In this document: in pieces, positions 28,238 to 34,529 of the stretch | Position numbering within the stretch: the stretch's first letter is position 1 | Layout: each line of letters opens with the position of its first letter | Assembly: GCA_023250955.1 (NCBI GenBank) | Contig: JAHEZQ010000033.1 | Coordinates: 1-49,944, forward strand | Length of the DNA stretch: 49,944 nucleotides | Source: Melioribacter sp. | GTDB lineage: Bacteria > Bacteroidota > Ignavibacteria > Ignavibacteriales > Melioribacteraceae | Direction of reading: 5' to 3' | Position numbers and translations under genes: made by a program | The notes under the pieces: model-generated | Told to the model about the DNA's origin: nothing | Seen by the model: only the letters and a program-made list of their open reading frames with translations | Databases searched by the model: none

Positions 28238-29434
28238 ATGAAATATGATGTAATTGTTGTTGGCGCAGGTATTGTTGGATTAGCTTCTGCGTTAAAACTA
28301 TTAGAAAAGAATCGCTCGCTAAAACTACTTATTCTCGAAAAAGAAAATAGTGTAGCAAAACATCAGACGGGGAATAACAGCGGAGTGATCCATTCCGGTA
28401 TTTATTATAAACCGGGAAGTTTGAAAGCACAGAATTGCGTCCGCGGATATAAAATGCTTATTGATTTTTGCAATGAGAATAAAGTCCGTTACGACATTTG
28501 TGGTAAAGTAATTGTTGCTACTACAGAAAAAGAAATTTCAGTAATGGAAAATATTCTTGATCGTGGAAACAAAAATGGTCTTGTAGGATTAAAAAGACTA
28601 ACGCGTGAAGAAGTAAAAGAAATTGAACCACACGTTGAATGTGTCGCTGGAATTTTTGTTCCTCAAACCGGAATAATTGATTACAGCGAAGTATCGGAAA
28701 AATATCTTGAACTAATTAAACGCGCTGAAGGGGAAATAGAATTCAATACAGAAATAAAGAATTTATTAATTAAGAAAGATGAATGCGAAGTAATTACATC
28801 ACGAGGTGTTTTTAGATCCAATATTGTTGTAACATGTGCGGGATTATTTGCAGATAGAATCACCAAGATGACTAATCCGGATTTACAGTTACGCCTTGTT
28901 CCGTTCCGTGGCGAGTATTATAAATTGAAGGAAGAAAAAAATAATTTAGTAAATGCTCTCATTTATCCTGTACCTGATCCTGCTTTTCCGTTCTTAGGCG
29001 TTCATTTTACAAAAATGATAAACGGGGAAAGGGAATGCGGCCCGAATGCTGTTCTTTCTTTTAAGAGAGAAGGATATACGAAAACAAGTTTTAATTTACT
29101 AGATACATTTGAAACCTTTACATGGAACGGTTTTCATAAATTGATAAAAAAACATTGGCGAATGGGATTAAGTGAATTTTATAGATCGTATAACAAAAAA
29201 GCTTTTGTCCGGGCATTAAATAAATTGATTCCCGAAGTAACAGCAGACGATCTTGAACCGGGCGGTGCCGGTGTACGGGCACAAGCATGCTTAAAAGACG
29301 GAAGTTTACTTGACGATTTTTATATTATAGAAGATAAAAAAGTTGTTCACGTTTGTAATGCACCGTCTCCCGCTGCTACAGCATCTCTTGCAATCGGAGA
29401 TTATATTTCAGATAAAGTTTTAACAAAAATTTAA
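28238..29434 (+). CDS. lhgO: L-2-hydroxyglutarate oxidase family FAD enzyme
   Basis: This 398-residue DAO-type flavoprotein starts with the dinucleotide-binding motif DVIVVGAGIVGLASALKLLE. HQTGNNSGVIHSGIYYKPGS is the LhgO hallmark. The middle includes VPQTGIIDYSEVSEKY and VVTCAGLFADRI. Near the C-terminus are EPGGAGVRAQAC and VCNAPSPAATASLAIGDYI, again typical. Known members oxidise L-2-hydroxyglutarate to 2-oxoglutarate. Here the gene is wedged between a GT2 and the initiating transferase with no gap, so it is co-transcribed with the polysaccharide genes. It may serve a pathway-specific oxidation or be metabolic housekeeping captured in the operon. Confidence 0.85.
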   Translation: MKYDVIVVGAGIVGLASALKLLEKNRSLKLLILEKENSVAKHQTGNNSGVIHSGIYYKPGSLKAQNCVRGYKMLIDFCNENKVRYDICGKVIVATTEKEISVMENILDRGNKNGLVGLKRLTREEVKEIEPHVECVAGIFVPQTGIIDYSEVSEKYLELIKRAEGEIEFNTEIKNLLIKKDECEVITSRGVFRSNIVVTCAGLFADRITKMTNPDLQLRLVPFRGEYYKLKEEKNNLVNALIYPVPDPAFPFLGVHFTKMINGERECGPNAVLSFKREGYTKTSFNLLDTFETFTWNGFHKLIKKHWRMGLSEFYRSYNKKAFVRALNKLIPEVTADDLEPGGAGVRAQACLKDGSLLDDFYIIEDKKVVHVCNAPSPAATASLAIGDYISDKVLTKI

Positions 29435-29445
29435 TACAAAATATT

Positions 29446-30849
29446 ATGAATAAAAAAACAGAAAAATTTTTAATTCTAACTACGGATTTTATTGCAGTTA
29501 ATCTTGCTTGGATTTTATTTTTCTACTTACGGGTACAAACAGGCTGGTTCGAATTAATCGCCCAACCCGATATTCTTCTTTCAATGATCGCAGTCTATTT
29601 TTATTGGCTCGTCATTTTCACTTTTGTTGGAATGTACCGTACATGGTTTGCTCTTTCAAGATTTGATGAATTATCTACATTGTTCAAGGCATCATTTGTC
29701 GGTGTTTTCATTTTGTTCTTTTTAGTATTGTATGATGATTACACAAACGGTGTTTCAACTTCTGTAAGATTTTATATTTTCCTTTATTGGGGGATTTTCT
29801 TATTTGTTGTTAGTACTGGGAGATTATTTATTAGAAGTCTTCAACGAAGACTTTTGATTAAAGGAATCGGAAGAAGAAATGCTTTAATTGTAGGGTTTAA
29901 TCCTAAGTCGAATGAAATTCACAATTCGATTCTGAAATTCAGAGAACTTGGTGTTGACGTTGTAGCTTATGTTGATGTTGACGGCACCCAGCTTAACAAT
30001 TCTTTTAAAAATATTTCTGTTGTTGATACAATATACAATTTGGAAACAATTTTGGAAAACTATCAAATCAAGAATGTTATTATTTCTCTGGGACGCCACG
30101 AAGAAGAAACTATTCTTGAAGTCATTTCACGTTGTGAAGGGAAAAATGTTGAGATAAAAATCGTTCCCGATCTTTATGACATCATAAGCGGGCAGGCTAA
30201 GATCTCTCAGCTTTATAGTTTCCCACTAATTGATGTAATGCCGGAATTAATGCCGGAGTGGGAAAAGAAAATTAAAAGATTGATGGATATAGTCTTATCA
30301 TTTATTCTTTTGCTCTTGACTTCTCCTGCAACTTTATTAACTGCATTATTTATAAAAATAGATAGTAGAGGACCTGTATTCTTCAAGCAAGAACGTGCCG
30401 GAATGAATGGAAAAGTTTTTAAGATGGTAAAGTTTAGAACAATGATTGCAGATGCCGAAAAACATACCGGTCCGGTTTGGTCTGCAAAGGATGATCCAAG
30501 AATTACCAAGGTTGGCAGATTCATCCGTAAGGTTCGCCTTGATGAAATTCCTCAAGTTTTCAATGTGTTGAAAGGTGATATGAGTTTTGTCGGTCCGCGT
30601 CCTGAACGGCCTTTCTTTGTAGAAAAACTTTCGCATGAAATCCCACTTTATAAAAGAAGATTAAAAGTTAGACCTGGAATTACAGGCTGGGCGCAAGTAA
30701 AACACAAATACGATGAGACAATTGAAGATGTAAAGGTTAAACTTCGTTATGATTTATTCTATATTGAAAATATGAGTTTAAGAATGGATTTTAAGATAAT
30801 TTTCAGAACTGTTTTTGTAGTATTATTCGGTAAAGGTCATTACGATTAA
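29446..30849 (+). CDS. Polyprenyl-phosphate glycosylphosphotransferase (initiating enzyme, WcaJ/WbaP type)
   Basis: The 467-residue protein has four N-terminal spans (about 8-28, 44-64, 82-98, 110-127), a CoA-binding-like Rossmann domain (about 143-265), and a fifth hydrophobic segment (281-303) leading into the catalytic bacterial sugar-transferase domain. Key motifs are intact: FFKQERAGMNGKVFKMVKFR (312-331), DDPRITKVGRFIRKVRLDEI (349-368), including the catalytic Asp-Glu pair, DMSFVGPRPERP (378-389), RPGITGWAQVKHKYDE, and the C-terminal YDLFYIENMSLRMDFKIIFR. It transfers a sugar-1-phosphate to undecaprenyl phosphate to start the repeat unit. Confidence 0.92.
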   Translation: MNKKTEKFLILTTDFIAVNLAWILFFYLRVQTGWFELIAQPDILLSMIAVYFYWLVIFTFVGMYRTWFALSRFDELSTLFKASFVGVFILFFLVLYDDYTNGVSTSVRFYIFLYWGIFLFVVSTGRLFIRSLQRRLLIKGIGRRNALIVGFNPKSNEIHNSILKFRELGVDVVAYVDVDGTQLNNSFKNISVVDTIYNLETILENYQIKNVIISLGRHEEETILEVISRCEGKNVEIKIVPDLYDIISGQAKISQLYSFPLIDVMPELMPEWEKKIKRLMDIVLSFILLLLTSPATLLTALFIKIDSRGPVFFKQERAGMNGKVFKMVKFRTMIADAEKHTGPVWSAKDDPRITKVGRFIRKVRLDEIPQVFNVLKGDMSFVGPRPERPFFVEKLSHEIPLYKRRLKVRPGITGWAQVKHKYDETIEDVKVKLRYDLFYIENMSLRMDFKIIFRTVFVVLFGKGHYD

Positions 30850-30863
30850 AATTAAATTTGATT

Positions 30864-31580
30864 ATGAAAGCTATAGTAATAATTCCCACATACAACGAGA
30901 TTCACAATATCAGAAAACTGATTCCTGAACTTCTTGAATCTTATCCTTCCCTTGATATTTTAATCGTTGACGATAATTCCCCTGATGGAACAGCAAATGC
31001 TGTTGATGAGATAAGTAAGAAAAACTCACGGGTAAAAATCATTAAGCGAAAAGGAAAAATGGGTCTCGGTACAGCATACGTCGCCGGATTTAAATACATG
31101 TTGGCGAACGGATATGATTGTGCTGTCCAGATGGATGCTGATTTTTCACATGATCCTAAAGAGATTGAGAGATTTTTAGAAGAAATAAATAATAATGATT
31201 TAATTATAGGCAGCAGATATATTTACGGAGTACGTGTAATCAATTGGCCTATCAGAAGATTACTCTTAAGTTATTTTGCAAATCTTTATTCAAGAATTAT
31301 TACCGGAATGCCGGTTAAAGATGGAACCGGAGGATTTAAATGTTTCCGCCGTAAAGTATTGGAATCAATTAATCTTGATGCAATTCACTCTAACGGTTAT
31401 TCATTTCAAATAGAAATGAATTATAAAGCATGGAAAAAAGGATTTAAGCTTATTGAAATTCCAATAACTTTTGTTGATAGAGTACATGGCACTTCAAAGA
31501 TGTCGAGGAAAATTGTTCGAGAAGCAGTTATTATGGTGTGGAAGTTAAGATTGAAAAGTATTTTCGGTACATTAAAATAA
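30864..31580 (+). CDS. Polyprenol-phosphate mannose synthase-like GT2
   Basis: The 238-residue protein from ATG 30864 (a TTG at 30858 would add two residues) has the compact form of DPM1-type enzymes, consisting of the GT domain without C-terminal membrane spans. Motifs are IIPTYNEIHNIRKLIPELLE, ILIVDDNSPDGTANAVDEI, the metal-binding QMDADFSHDPKEI, IIGSRYIYG, DGTGGFKCFRRKVLES, SNGYSFQIEMNYKAWKKGF and VDRVHGTSKMS. Family members form polyprenyl-P-mannose or -glucose, used as a membrane-side sugar donor for glycan or protein modification. It sits 14 nt after the initiating transferase. Confidence 0.88.
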   Translation: MKAIVIIPTYNEIHNIRKLIPELLESYPSLDILIVDDNSPDGTANAVDEISKKNSRVKIIKRKGKMGLGTAYVAGFKYMLANGYDCAVQMDADFSHDPKEIERFLEEINNNDLIIGSRYIYGVRVINWPIRRLLLSYFANLYSRIITGMPVKDGTGGFKCFRRKVLESINLDAIHSNGYSFQIEMNYKAWKKGFKLIEIPITFVDRVHGTSKMSRKIVREAVIMVWKLRLKSIFGTLK

Positions 31581-31587
31581 GACCGCA

Positions 31588-33576
31588 ATGATTGATCTCT
31601 CAATAATAATTATCAATTATAACGTAAAGGAATTTTTACTTAATCTCTTGGACTCACTCCGTAAAGCGGTAAAAAACATTTCTACGGAAATTATCATTGT
31701 TGATAATGCTTCGGATGACGGAAGTGTTGAAATTCTTCGAGAGAAATTTTCAAATATCAAATTAATAGCAAACAAAAAAAATGTTGGATTTGGTTCAGCT
31801 AATAATCAAGCGTTACAAATAGCAAAAGGGAAATATTTTCTGTTGATCAATCCTGATGCAATAGTTAGAGAAGATACTTTAATTAAAATGTTGGAGTTCT
31901 TTGATAAAACTCCTCAAGTTGGAATTGCAGGCTGCAAAGTATTAAACCCCGATGGTTCATTACAGCTCGCTTGCAGAAGAGGTTTCCCCGGACCATGGAC
32001 TTCATTTACAAAAGTTATGGGATTAAGCAAGCTTTTTCCTAAGAGCAGATTGTTTGCTCGTTATAATTTAACGTTCCTCGATGAAAATCAAACTTACGAA
32101 GTTGATGCAATCAGCGGTGCGTTTATGATGATGAGAAAAGAAGTCTATGAAAAAATCGGTGGATTCGATCAACAGTTTTTTATGTATGGTGAGGATCTGG
32201 ATCTTTGTTACAGAGCGCAAAAATCCGGGTATAAAGTCTATTATGTACACTATACTGAAATAATTCATTACAAAGGTGAGAGCACAAAAAGAAGCAGTTT
32301 GGATGAAACAAAAATCTTTTATGATGCCATGCATCTTTTTGTCCGTAAACATTTTTCTTCTTCATTCATTGTTGAGTCGATTCTTCAAATAGCGATACTT
32401 TTCAGAAAACTAATTGCATTTGCAAATGTTTACAAGCTCGCGTTTCTTTCAATTATTGTTGACTTCTTTACTTTTTCAATCTCCGTTCTTCTTGCAGTAG
32501 ATATTTATTCTAATGAGCATTGGAAAGGTTTTCCGGATTATGCAAAACCATGGGTTTATTTTATTCCCGCTTTCATTCAAATTTTAATATCATCTATTGG
32601 CGGCTCATATAGTAAAAAATCATTTTCAATTTTACGTACTATCAGTTCACTATTATTTGGAATGATCTTTTTATCTGCGCTAACTTATTTTTTCAAACAA
32701 GTAGCATTCAGCCGCGCTGTTGTTTTAATAACATACGCAATTGTTCTTGTTTTCTTTTTGTTCTGGAGAATAGCACTTAAAGTAATTTTTAGAATTGGAC
32801 TTGAGACTAATACCAAGAAATCCCGGACATTGATAGTAGCAAGTGAATCTAAAGCAGAAGAACTTGCATCAAAATTGAAATCAACGTTTACTAAACTTTA
32901 TCAAGTCGTCGGGATAATCGGACTGACAAGAAAAAGTATAGGTGAAAAAATTGGCAGTTATAAAATTTTAGGAACTGTTGATAACATAAAAAAAATAATT
33001 GCTGATGAAAAAGTTGATAAAATAATTTTTTCTTCGGATGATCTTTCATTCAATCAAATGTTTTCAGTTGTTGCGGAATGTCAAGGGTTGAATGTAGAAT
33101 TTCTTGTAGCAGGTAAAGAATTAGATTATTTGGTAGGCAAGTCTTCCATTACAATGTTAGATGATATTCCGCTTCTGAAAGTACAGTATAATATTTCATC
33201 TTATTTTCACCGAGCATCAAAACAAATCATGGACATAATACTTTCATCATTAATTTTGTTTTTGGTTTATCCTTTCATATATTTATTTCAAAAGCTGAGA
33301 TCAAAAAAGAGTAAATTCACTCAATTAATCCTCGGAATCCCGAGTGTTTTCATCGGAAAGAAAAGTTTTGTAGGGCCGCGTGATAGTTCTTATCACGGTG
33401 ATTTATATGTTGGAAAAACCGGTTTAACCGGATTCTGGTTTGTAGAAAATTTATTAGAAAATGATATCGAAGAAATAAAAAAGCTTGACATCTTTTACGC
33501 AAAAAATCAAAACATTTGGTTAGACCTAGAAATACTTGGAAAGACACTTTCAAAAATGTTTTTTAGTGTGGAGTAG
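31588..33576 (+). CDS. Fusion: GT2 glycosyltransferase + shortened glycosylphosphotransferase module
   Basis: This is a 662-residue two-part protein. Residues 1-270 are a complete GT2 domain ([83 protein letters not shown]), closely like the GT2 at 23811. Residues 284-405 contain four to five hydrophobic spans. About 412-530 is a Rossmann-like domain ([19 protein letters not shown]). Residues 540-662 resemble a sugar transferase: [69 protein letters not shown]. The catalytic centre (K-x-R-T-M ... DElPQ) is missing between residues 570 and 592. The C-terminal half therefore looks non-catalytic and may be a scaffold. Confidence 0.85.
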
Positions 33577-33578
33577 AA

Positions 33579-34529
33579 ATGGCAAAAAATGTACTGGATT
33601 TTGAGAAGCCCATAATTGAACTTGAAAAAAAGATTGATGAAATGCGGAAGTATGAAGGGCGTCTTAATATCTCTGACGAGATAAAAACACTTGAAGAAAA
33701 AGTTCTTGAGCTCAAGAAAGATATTTATAACGATCTAACTCGCTGGCAGCGTGTTCAGCTAGCACGCCATCCGGAACGTCCTTATACTCTGGATTATATT
33801 TATATGATAACAGAGAATTTTGTTGAACTGCACGGCGATAGATTGTTCAAAGATGATAAAGCAATTGTTGGCGGCTTTGCTATGATTGATGACCAAAAAG
33901 TAATGATAATCGGTCATCAAAAGGGAAGGGATACAAAATCCAATGTTTATAGAAATTTTGGTATGTCTAATCCCGAAGGTTACCGCAAAGCATTACGTTT
34001 GATGAAACTGGCAGAGAAATTTAGAATTCCTGTTATCACGATGCTTGACACGCCGGGCGCTTATCCTGGAATTGAAGCAGAAGAACGCGGACAGGCTGAA
34101 GCAATTGCTAGAAATCTTTTAGAGATGAGCCGCCTTCACGTTCCAATTATTGTTACAATTATTGGCGAGGGTGCAAGCGGAGGTGCATTAGGAATTGGTA
34201 TTGGCGATAGAGTTTTAATGTTACAAAATACCTGGTATTCGGTAATTAGTCCGGAATCTTGTTCAAGTATTTTATGGAGAAGTTGGGAATATAAAGAAAC
34301 TGCAGCAGAAGCATTAAAACTAACTGCTGAAGATTTATTGGAACAAGGAATTATTGATCGGATTGTTCCCGAGCCTTTGGGCGGTGCTCATAAAGATCAT
34401 TTAAAAATGGCAAGTACATTAAAATCAGTCTTGAAGGAAGAACTTTCCATTTTGATGAAAATAAAACCAGAGAAATTGATACTGAACCGTCTTGAAAAAT
34501 TTGCAAAGATGGGAATGTATATTGAATAA
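33579..34529 (+). CDS. accA: Acetyl-CoA carboxylase carboxyltransferase subunit alpha
   Basis: AccA, with AccD, transfers the carboxyl group from biotin-BCCP to acetyl-CoA to make malonyl-CoA for fatty-acid synthesis. The protein is 316 residues, normal for the family. A helical N-terminal segment (about 1-50) leads to [92 protein letters not shown] and [19 protein letters not shown], the canonical crotonase-fold carboxyltransferase motifs. It starts 2 nt after the fusion gene, so a housekeeping gene directly follows the polysaccharide run. Confidence 0.97.

Follow-up and report, generated by a model that had tools for sequence, protein, structure and literature searches.

Among the described systems closest to the protein analysed here, WbaP, a large monotopic PGT (Lg-PGT), forms a dimer in which, according to the part of PMC10942596 that deals with its structure, a modest membrane-helix contact is combined with a PF13727 contact made almost wholly via a beta-hairpin swapped into the partner. 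The same part reports that the PF13727 domain of WbaP is stabilised by UMP, UDP and UTP and that UMP inhibits the enzyme, and it refers, after O'Toole et al. 2021, to the Bi-PGT class of bifunctional monotopic PGTs (PMC10942596). On the glycosyltransferase side, fpgA is given as a GT2 of 319 aa in the relevant portion of PMC4293000, and the machinery for the O-glycan core shared by Bacteroidota is stated as unidentified in the corresponding portion of PMC12871550. Our literature search of open-licence papers found no report of an inactive or pseudo-PGT, or of a PGT fusion of the kind described below.

The window, the whole stretch of 49,944 nucleotides from a Melioribacter sp. contig that was analysed, carries a gene whose product joins a GT2 to a PGT scaffold, as in the original prediction (Table 1). 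Pfam assigns residues 5-191 to PF00535 (2.1e-27), residues 342-506 to PF13727 (5.1e-13) and only residues 586-658 to PF02397 (3.2e-10, above cut-off), the last match covering profile positions 96-178 of 179; TIGR03025 matches residues 291-566 with 150 bits, below its cut-off of 295.55. The N-terminal part is a GT2 of the PF00535 type, with a GT-A fold and conserved donor and catalytic motifs: N88, P89, D90, F198 to D203, D205, H227, G230 and S232 are invariant in 68 aligned sequences, and K229 and E231 are conserved in at least 90% of them. The roles of the motifs NPD, FMYGED and HYKGES are those that we presume for this family. The remainder has the layout of an Lg-PGT, with a membrane bundle (helices 283-311, 320-337, 348-368 and 376-401 in the model) and PF13727 ahead of a PGT domain, and the tail has the fold of a monotopic PGT (PF02397), re-entrant helix included.

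Table 1. Features of the fusion gene and its neighbours in the window, and late-starting PF02397 matches in other genomes
Feature	Position	Strand	Basis
Active-type Lg-PGT (29446), 467 aa, sole full PF02397 match in the genome	29446..30849	+	Pfam, genome scan
Polyprenyl/dolichyl-phosphate mannose (DPM) synthase-like GT2, 240 aa, between PGT and fusion	30858..31580	+	5mlz DPM synthase, E 7.9e-36
GT2 - dead Lg-PGT fusion gene, 662 aa	31588..33576	+	ORF, Pfam, homologues, model
GT2 catalytic domain, residues 1-255: NPD 88-90, FMYGED 198-203, HYKGES 227-232	31588..32352	+	PF00535, alignment, fold
Lg-PGT-type membrane helix bundle, residues 283-402	32434..32793	+	TIGR03025 match 291-566; model helices
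Segment with Rossmann-like part of PF13727 (CoA_binding_3 / Lg-PGT DUF), residues 406-536	32803..33195	+	Pfam, model, segment-profile scan
Counterpart of WbaP domain-swap beta-hairpin, 17 residues, 517-533	33136..33186	+	Alignment to WbaP linker
Dead PGT domain, residues 537-660; re-entrant helix start, 12 residues, 543-554	33196..33567	+	Model vs PglC; conserved residues
Short segment in place of KxRTM, DxRxT and DExPQ, 18 residues, 571-588	33298..33351	+	Alignment
Kept PGT C-terminal elements: GKKSFVGPR 590-598, KTGLTGFW 610-617, a 15-residue stretch 635-649	33355..33534	+	PF02397 96-178
Presumed accA (acetyl-CoA carboxylase alpha), next to fusion	33579..34529	+	Gene context
Late-starting PF02397 match	G334:C16:52403-52864		
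Late-starting PF02397 match	G091:C9:22371-22781		
Late-starting PF02397 match	G336:C1:67744-68199		
Late-starting PF02397 match	G222:C111:3996-4328		
Late-starting PF02397 match	G192:C10:131642-132097		
Late-starting PF02397 match	G160:C157:25293-25757		

An AlphaFold2 model of the full fusion, built with 68 sequences, reached a pLDDT of 87.8; the C-terminal part was also modelled and searched apart, as the GT2 domain filled the match list of the full model, and reached 88.0. For this C-terminal model WbaP (8t53) was the first Foldseek match (4.4e-12), with a VIA Z of 13.5 over 318 aligned residues and an rmsd of 14.9, which implies that the placement of the domains differs from that in WbaP or is uncertain. 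In this structure prediction, a check proposed at the outset, the dead domain is predicted to adopt the PGT fold, the last 124 residues of the C-terminal model aligning with PglC (8e37) over 120 residues (Z 11.2, rmsd 3.0). In the full model, WrtF, a GDP-fucose transferase, was the top Foldseek match (Z about 24 for the GT2 half), and 6p61 was the top match of that half by Z (25.4, rmsd 1.8, 183 aligned).

What the tail lacks is the catalytic section. As originally predicted, the Lg-PGT encoded at 29446 retains KFRTM (residues 329-333), DDPRIT (from residue 349) and LDEIPQ (365-370), and direct comparison finds no counterpart to any of these in the fusion, where a short segment stands instead. 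Between the beginning of the re-entrant helix and G-x-x-SFVGPR lie 46 residues in the fusion and 101 in 29446, a difference of 55; reckoned through to the C-terminus the shortfall is about 73 residues, close to the 70 codons first estimated. We take DExPQ to be the catalytic D-E dyad of monotopic PGTs. Identical patterns were applied to 204 fusion homologues (187 loci, 16 further short forms and the window protein) and to 99 PGT-like ORFs of the same loci, the latter selected by a score above 150 bits to 29446 and a length of 380-850 aa, with no motif filter. KxR[ST]M occurs in none of the homologues and in 98 of the 99 ORFs, DExPQ in 0/204 as against 99/99, and DxRxT in three homologues (two of them in the last quarter) as against 95 ORFs, so that KxR[ST]M and DExPQ do not turn up elsewhere in the chain either, a possibility that had been raised at the outset as one that would refute the prediction. 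A looser KxR pattern is found in 36 of the 204, four times in the last quarter and never alongside DExPQ, and a looser DE pattern in one, outside the last quarter; earlier scans for the core motifs had given 0/107 and 0/80 homologues. Among the 187 loci, five are second copies of one protein, 179 encode at least 560 aa, and nine have ORFs touching the locus edge (L165, L166, L178, L185, L188, L190, L204, L232 and L235).

A profile of 97 PGTs, picked by the DE motif so that its own D-E column is circular (the 99-ORF control being the unfiltered one), matches 162 of the 187 fusions and leaves the D-E columns unaligned in 158; in the other four they read D or E, then R or K. The same 97 PGTs served for the tree and the neighbourhood counts. 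Where aligned, K-R-x-x-D, GxTG and Y..N..D are kept. K545 and D549 are invariant in 20 homologues (an alignment in which the members other than the window protein are one codon short at one end) and conserved in at least 90% of 68 sequences, while Y637 and D646 are invariant in all 68. On these alignments the fusion does not qualify as a catalytic monotopic PGT, since DExPQ, KxR[ST]M and DxRxT are all absent from the aligned place. None of the 204 homologues is a fusion with an intact PGT core, the would-be ancestor. Two of them, L184 (residues 607-688) and L126 (residues 553-697), retain a longer portion of the catalytic helix of the PGT, in which the dyad position is altered: the profile pairs D-E with E-R in L184, and the dyad of L126 reads N-R by eye from the alignment. 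Both are possible intermediates of core loss. As a separate observation, six PF02397 matches in ORFs of 360-652 aa from other genomes start at profile position 34-36 (Table 1) and are seemingly PGT-like domains without the re-entrant helix, the reverse of the fusion case.

The absence of some 73 residues relative to 29446 could in principle mean that the tail is a decaying part of a pseudogene or that the assembly has suffered a deletion, a reading to which we give almost no credence, given that the gap is common to other genomes, that the fold is confidently modelled and that the dN/dS of the dead domain is 0.10-0.13 in four comparisons within the genus. An assembly deletion, against which the original prediction had itself cautioned, is ruled out by the recurrence of the gap in further members of the genus, order, class and phylum, at identities as low as about 33%; a pseudogene is ruled out by the conservation of the gap together with dN/dS. 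In the same four comparisons dN/dS is 0.05-0.08 for the membrane bundle with PF13727 and 0.03-0.04 for the GT2 domain, and two comparisons of the catalytic domain of 29446 gave 0.026 and 0.056. The dead domain is thus faster-evolving than all of these, and its lower dS (0.31-0.34) makes up part of its raised ratio. Judged from these ratios, it is under purifying selection.

The fusion is widespread. All 57 genomes near the window, its own included, match it, 54 almost over the full length at 46-100% identity; the match is restricted to the N-terminal half and ends at a contig edge in two (G006 and G029), and it is a weak GT2 match only in G042. In the phylum sample 210 of 296 genomes match at E<=1e-50, these being GT2 matches and not all necessarily orthologues; near full-length matches extend down to about 33% identity, and matches past residue 450 occur in at least 128 of the 296. 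The best 80 loci belong to Ignavibacteriota, Bacteroidota (Bacteroidia, Saprospiria, Chitinophagia, Cytophagia and Flavobacteriia), Rhodothermota, Balneolota, Kryptoniota, Chlorobiota, Calditrichota and Fidelibacterota (Neomarinimicrobiota), besides bins titled KSB1 and TA06 and one Desulfobulbaceae contig, so the domain pair, to be sought in other Ignavibacteria, is found there and far beyond. In the Desulfobulbaceae MAG contig (L235), whose bin is named outside the other phyla, the GT2 homologue is cut and has PGT and DPM-like genes next to it, which may reflect either transfer or mis-binning. At a threshold of 0.01 the PF02397 model detects 37 of 68 members and the PF13727 model 56, indicating that the Pfam models overlook many diverged domains.

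In a tree of the part that the fusions have in common with Lg-PGTs, a branch supported by SH-aLRT 98 separates 35 fusions (drawn from the homologous loci and the window) from 36 active PGTs (drawn from fusion loci alone); the tree was built by a quick method with SH-aLRT only, is unrooted and has many weak inner branches. The tree fits one origin of the fusions but falls short of proof, being unrooted and having its PGTs sampled from fusion loci only. On this sampling it leads us to reject the tail as a recent duplicate of 29446. It also bears on the wording of the original prediction, that the GT2 has recruited a dead scaffold: the dead scaffold stands, but 'has inherited' describes the case better than 'has recruited', the fusions not being copies of 29446 in the tree. 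The fusion looks like an old, kept design that recurs in several phyla, and not like a broken gene.

In some lineages the tail has been trimmed. According to segment profiles, 175 of the 204 homologues match GT2, membrane bundle, PF13727 and dead domain, 17 match GT2 and PF13727 only, six GT2, bundle and PF13727, three GT2 and bundle, two GT2, and one GT2, bundle and dead domain; among those without all four segments, L178, L190 and L235 run to the locus edge. The PF13727 segment is matched by 198 of the 204 and, of the six that do not match at 1e-3, L190 and L235 are pieces at contig ends. None of 950 shuffled tails and none of 287 neighbour ORFs fell below 1e-3 (best 0.011 and 0.0083, respectively). 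Uncut homologues with the bundle and PF13727 but without the dead domain are L208 and L223 (Calditrichota), L215 (a bin), L148 and the diverged L129.

The most reduced are 19 short forms (the 16 mentioned above with L145, L146 and L149), which are GT2-only matches with ORFs of 389-428 aa among the matches listed. The PF13727 segment still matches in 17 of these 19, whereas the bundle and the dead domain do not, and these 17 are not a random sample, having been chosen by GT2-only match and ORF length. In the three whose alignment was inspected only the last part of PF13727 matches, up to 'IGxS', with the hairpin start nearby. L146 (417 aa) precedes accA and a thioesterase-like gene, L149 (403 aa) precedes PGT, DPM-like and accA genes, and L239 and L242 adjoin accA; this context suggests a trimmed version of the same gene in each case. 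The remaining short forms showed no comparable context. Since 17 homologues do without the membrane bundle and the dead domain, both are dispensable in some lineages. Losses of this kind, and a dead-domain dN/dS that is the highest of the segments, are what might be seen if the tail were a leftover that did nothing except tether the GT2 to the membrane. We find this improbable, as the PF13727 segment is kept in short forms in which neither bundle nor dead domain matches, and as the motifs of the dead domain are conserved and its dN/dS is low. PF13727 being the most persistent segment of the tail, it might alternatively bind UMP or UDP released by both transfers and thereby hold back either the GT2 or the PGT, in the way suggested for WbaP, whose nucleotide effects, in the part of PMC10942596 that describes them, would lend this reading some weight. 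The short forms inspected nevertheless hold part of PF13727 only, and a nucleotide sensor seems to us an equally improbable account. Lineages that dropped the non-catalytic Lg-PGT parts one by one, with PF13727 mostly staying, constitute a natural experiment on the role of these parts.

The gene neighbourhood may give a clue to function. PF02397 has two matches in the whole genome, 29446 (profile positions 1-178) and the fusion remnant. Three neighbours were counted in genomes, with sufficient flank, from the genus, family, order and class of the window: a gene for a DPM-like GT2 (no more than 1 kb upstream of the fusion, 65 of 71), an active PGT (no more than 4 kb upstream, 58 of 69) and the gene that we take to be accA (at most 150 bp downstream, 61 of 66). 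Elsewhere in the phylum, the active PGT is upstream in 2 of 29 genomes and downstream in 12 of 33. Calditrichota and Fidelibacterota have the DPM-like gene (2/2 and 4/4, respectively) and accA (2/2 and 1/1) as neighbours of the fusion, with no active PGT within 4 kb upstream (0/1 and 0/3); among the best 80 loci, those of Bacteroidia had no adjacent DPM-like gene (0/17), no active PGT upstream (0/14) and no accA (0/17). Genes that by eye resemble recR and a dehydrogenase E2 occur nearby in 15 and nine, respectively, of 36 loci, which are mostly of Bacteroidota with one of Balneolota. Ahead of the PGT in the window (28238-29434) is what we presume to be an FAD-dependent oxidoreductase-like (LhgO-like) gene, whose place is kept in most genus and family loci. 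It may also be mentioned that accA adjoins glycan genes alike in Ignavibacteriota, Fidelibacterota and Calditrichota loci.

The hairpin region of the fusion aligns to the WbaP linker and to the hairpin region of 29446. D513, G517 and K518 are conserved in at least 90% of 20 homologues; in 68 sequences G517 is present in 61, D513 in 21 and K518 in 30, the sequence being loose beyond close relatives. This alignment raises the possibility that the fusion and 29446 swap their PF13727 hairpins, which would unite steps 1 and 2 in one complex and allow the Und-PP-sugar to be handed over. Such a heterodimer, which we hold to be possible yet doubtful, would accord with the single full PF02397 match in this genome, with the frequency of an upstream active PGT in the class, and with the fact that a full PF02397 protein is present in all 36 genomes selected because they carry a fusion homologue and in all 51 genomes scanned from the class (some genomes belong to both sets, and the fusion was looked for in part of the 51). 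Set against it are the Bacteroidia, Fidelibacterota and Calditrichota loci with no active PGT upstream, and homodimerisation, which, on the description of WbaP in part of PMC10942596, would be simpler. That the scaffold may hold the second transferase beside the polyprenyl-P-P-sugar or bind the active enzyme, as originally suggested, is plausible. If the neighbour were bound through the dead domain, it would nevertheless be hard to account for lineages without this domain that still match the PF13727 segment. As a partner of the fusion, 29446 would thus be attractive in this genome, but not required.

We consider it fairly probable that the fusion is a membrane-held GT2 acting after initiation and paired via an inherited, inactive PGT scaffold. 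The ancestor of the C-terminal 380 residues would be a large monotopic PGT whose catalytic core was lost, in the simplest case a single time and ahead of the divergence of the phyla sampled, and which has since been retained as a scaffold. This scaffold would anchor the GT2 at the cytoplasmic face of the membrane, where Und-PP-sugar is made, and the PF13727 domain with its beta-hairpin would join chains, into either a homodimer or a mixed dimer with an active Lg-PGT. The GT2 would then act once the phosphosugar has been transferred by the initiating enzyme, adding a sugar to an acceptor linked to polyprenyl; the gene context suggests such a second-step, lipid-linked role, with Und-PP-sugar as the putative acceptor. 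The WbaP hairpin dimerises, and the fusion has the corresponding region, if loose in sequence; an old Lg-PGT that lost its chemistry and was kept as a membrane and dimerisation scaffold would be the simplest account. The fusion joins a dead PGT to a GT that is apparently active, and several phyla have kept it; it provides a concrete protein for asking whether the transferase of the initiating step and that of the second step work in one complex. It is tempting to speculate that the conserved hexose-deoxyhexose disaccharide at the core of the protein O-glycan found throughout Bacteroidota is built by the DPM-like synthase, the active Lg-PGT and the fusion, with the dead PGT as a platform for dimerisation through which initiation is coupled to addition of the second sugar. 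The breadth of GT2 matches in the phylum sample at E<=1e-50, the synteny block with the DPM-like synthase and the position of WrtF as top Foldseek match of the full model all led us to this idea, which we regard as a long shot.

In comparison with known systems, the fusion shares with the large monotopic PGTs (WbaP and WcaJ; TIGR03025, PF13727+PF02397) the membrane bundle, PF13727, the hairpin region, the re-entrant helix and the C-terminal helices; it differs from them in the absence of KxRTM, DxRxT and DExPQ, in the extra N-terminal GT2 and in a TIGR03025 score below cut-off. The small PGT PglC (8e37, 8g1n) can be superposed on the dead domain over 120 residues at Z 11, the catalytic stretch being absent from the fusion. 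Like the glycan-assembly GT2s (WrtF fucosyltransferase, 9omm; the rhamnosyltransferase family TIGR01556; EpsD, NF041875), the N-terminal half has a GT-A-type fold and the corresponding profile matches, albeit at 15-25% identity in the structural matches and with the NCBIfam models listed all below cut-off. Finally, as in the Bi-PGTs, a PGT-type domain and another enzyme are present in one chain. In that class, as outlined in part of PMC10942596, the partner enzyme is fused to a catalytic PGT domain, whereas the PGT domain of the fusion lacks the catalytic core; as read from its sequence, the fusion would therefore fall outside the Bi-PGTs, pairing a second enzyme with a PGT domain that has kept its fold.
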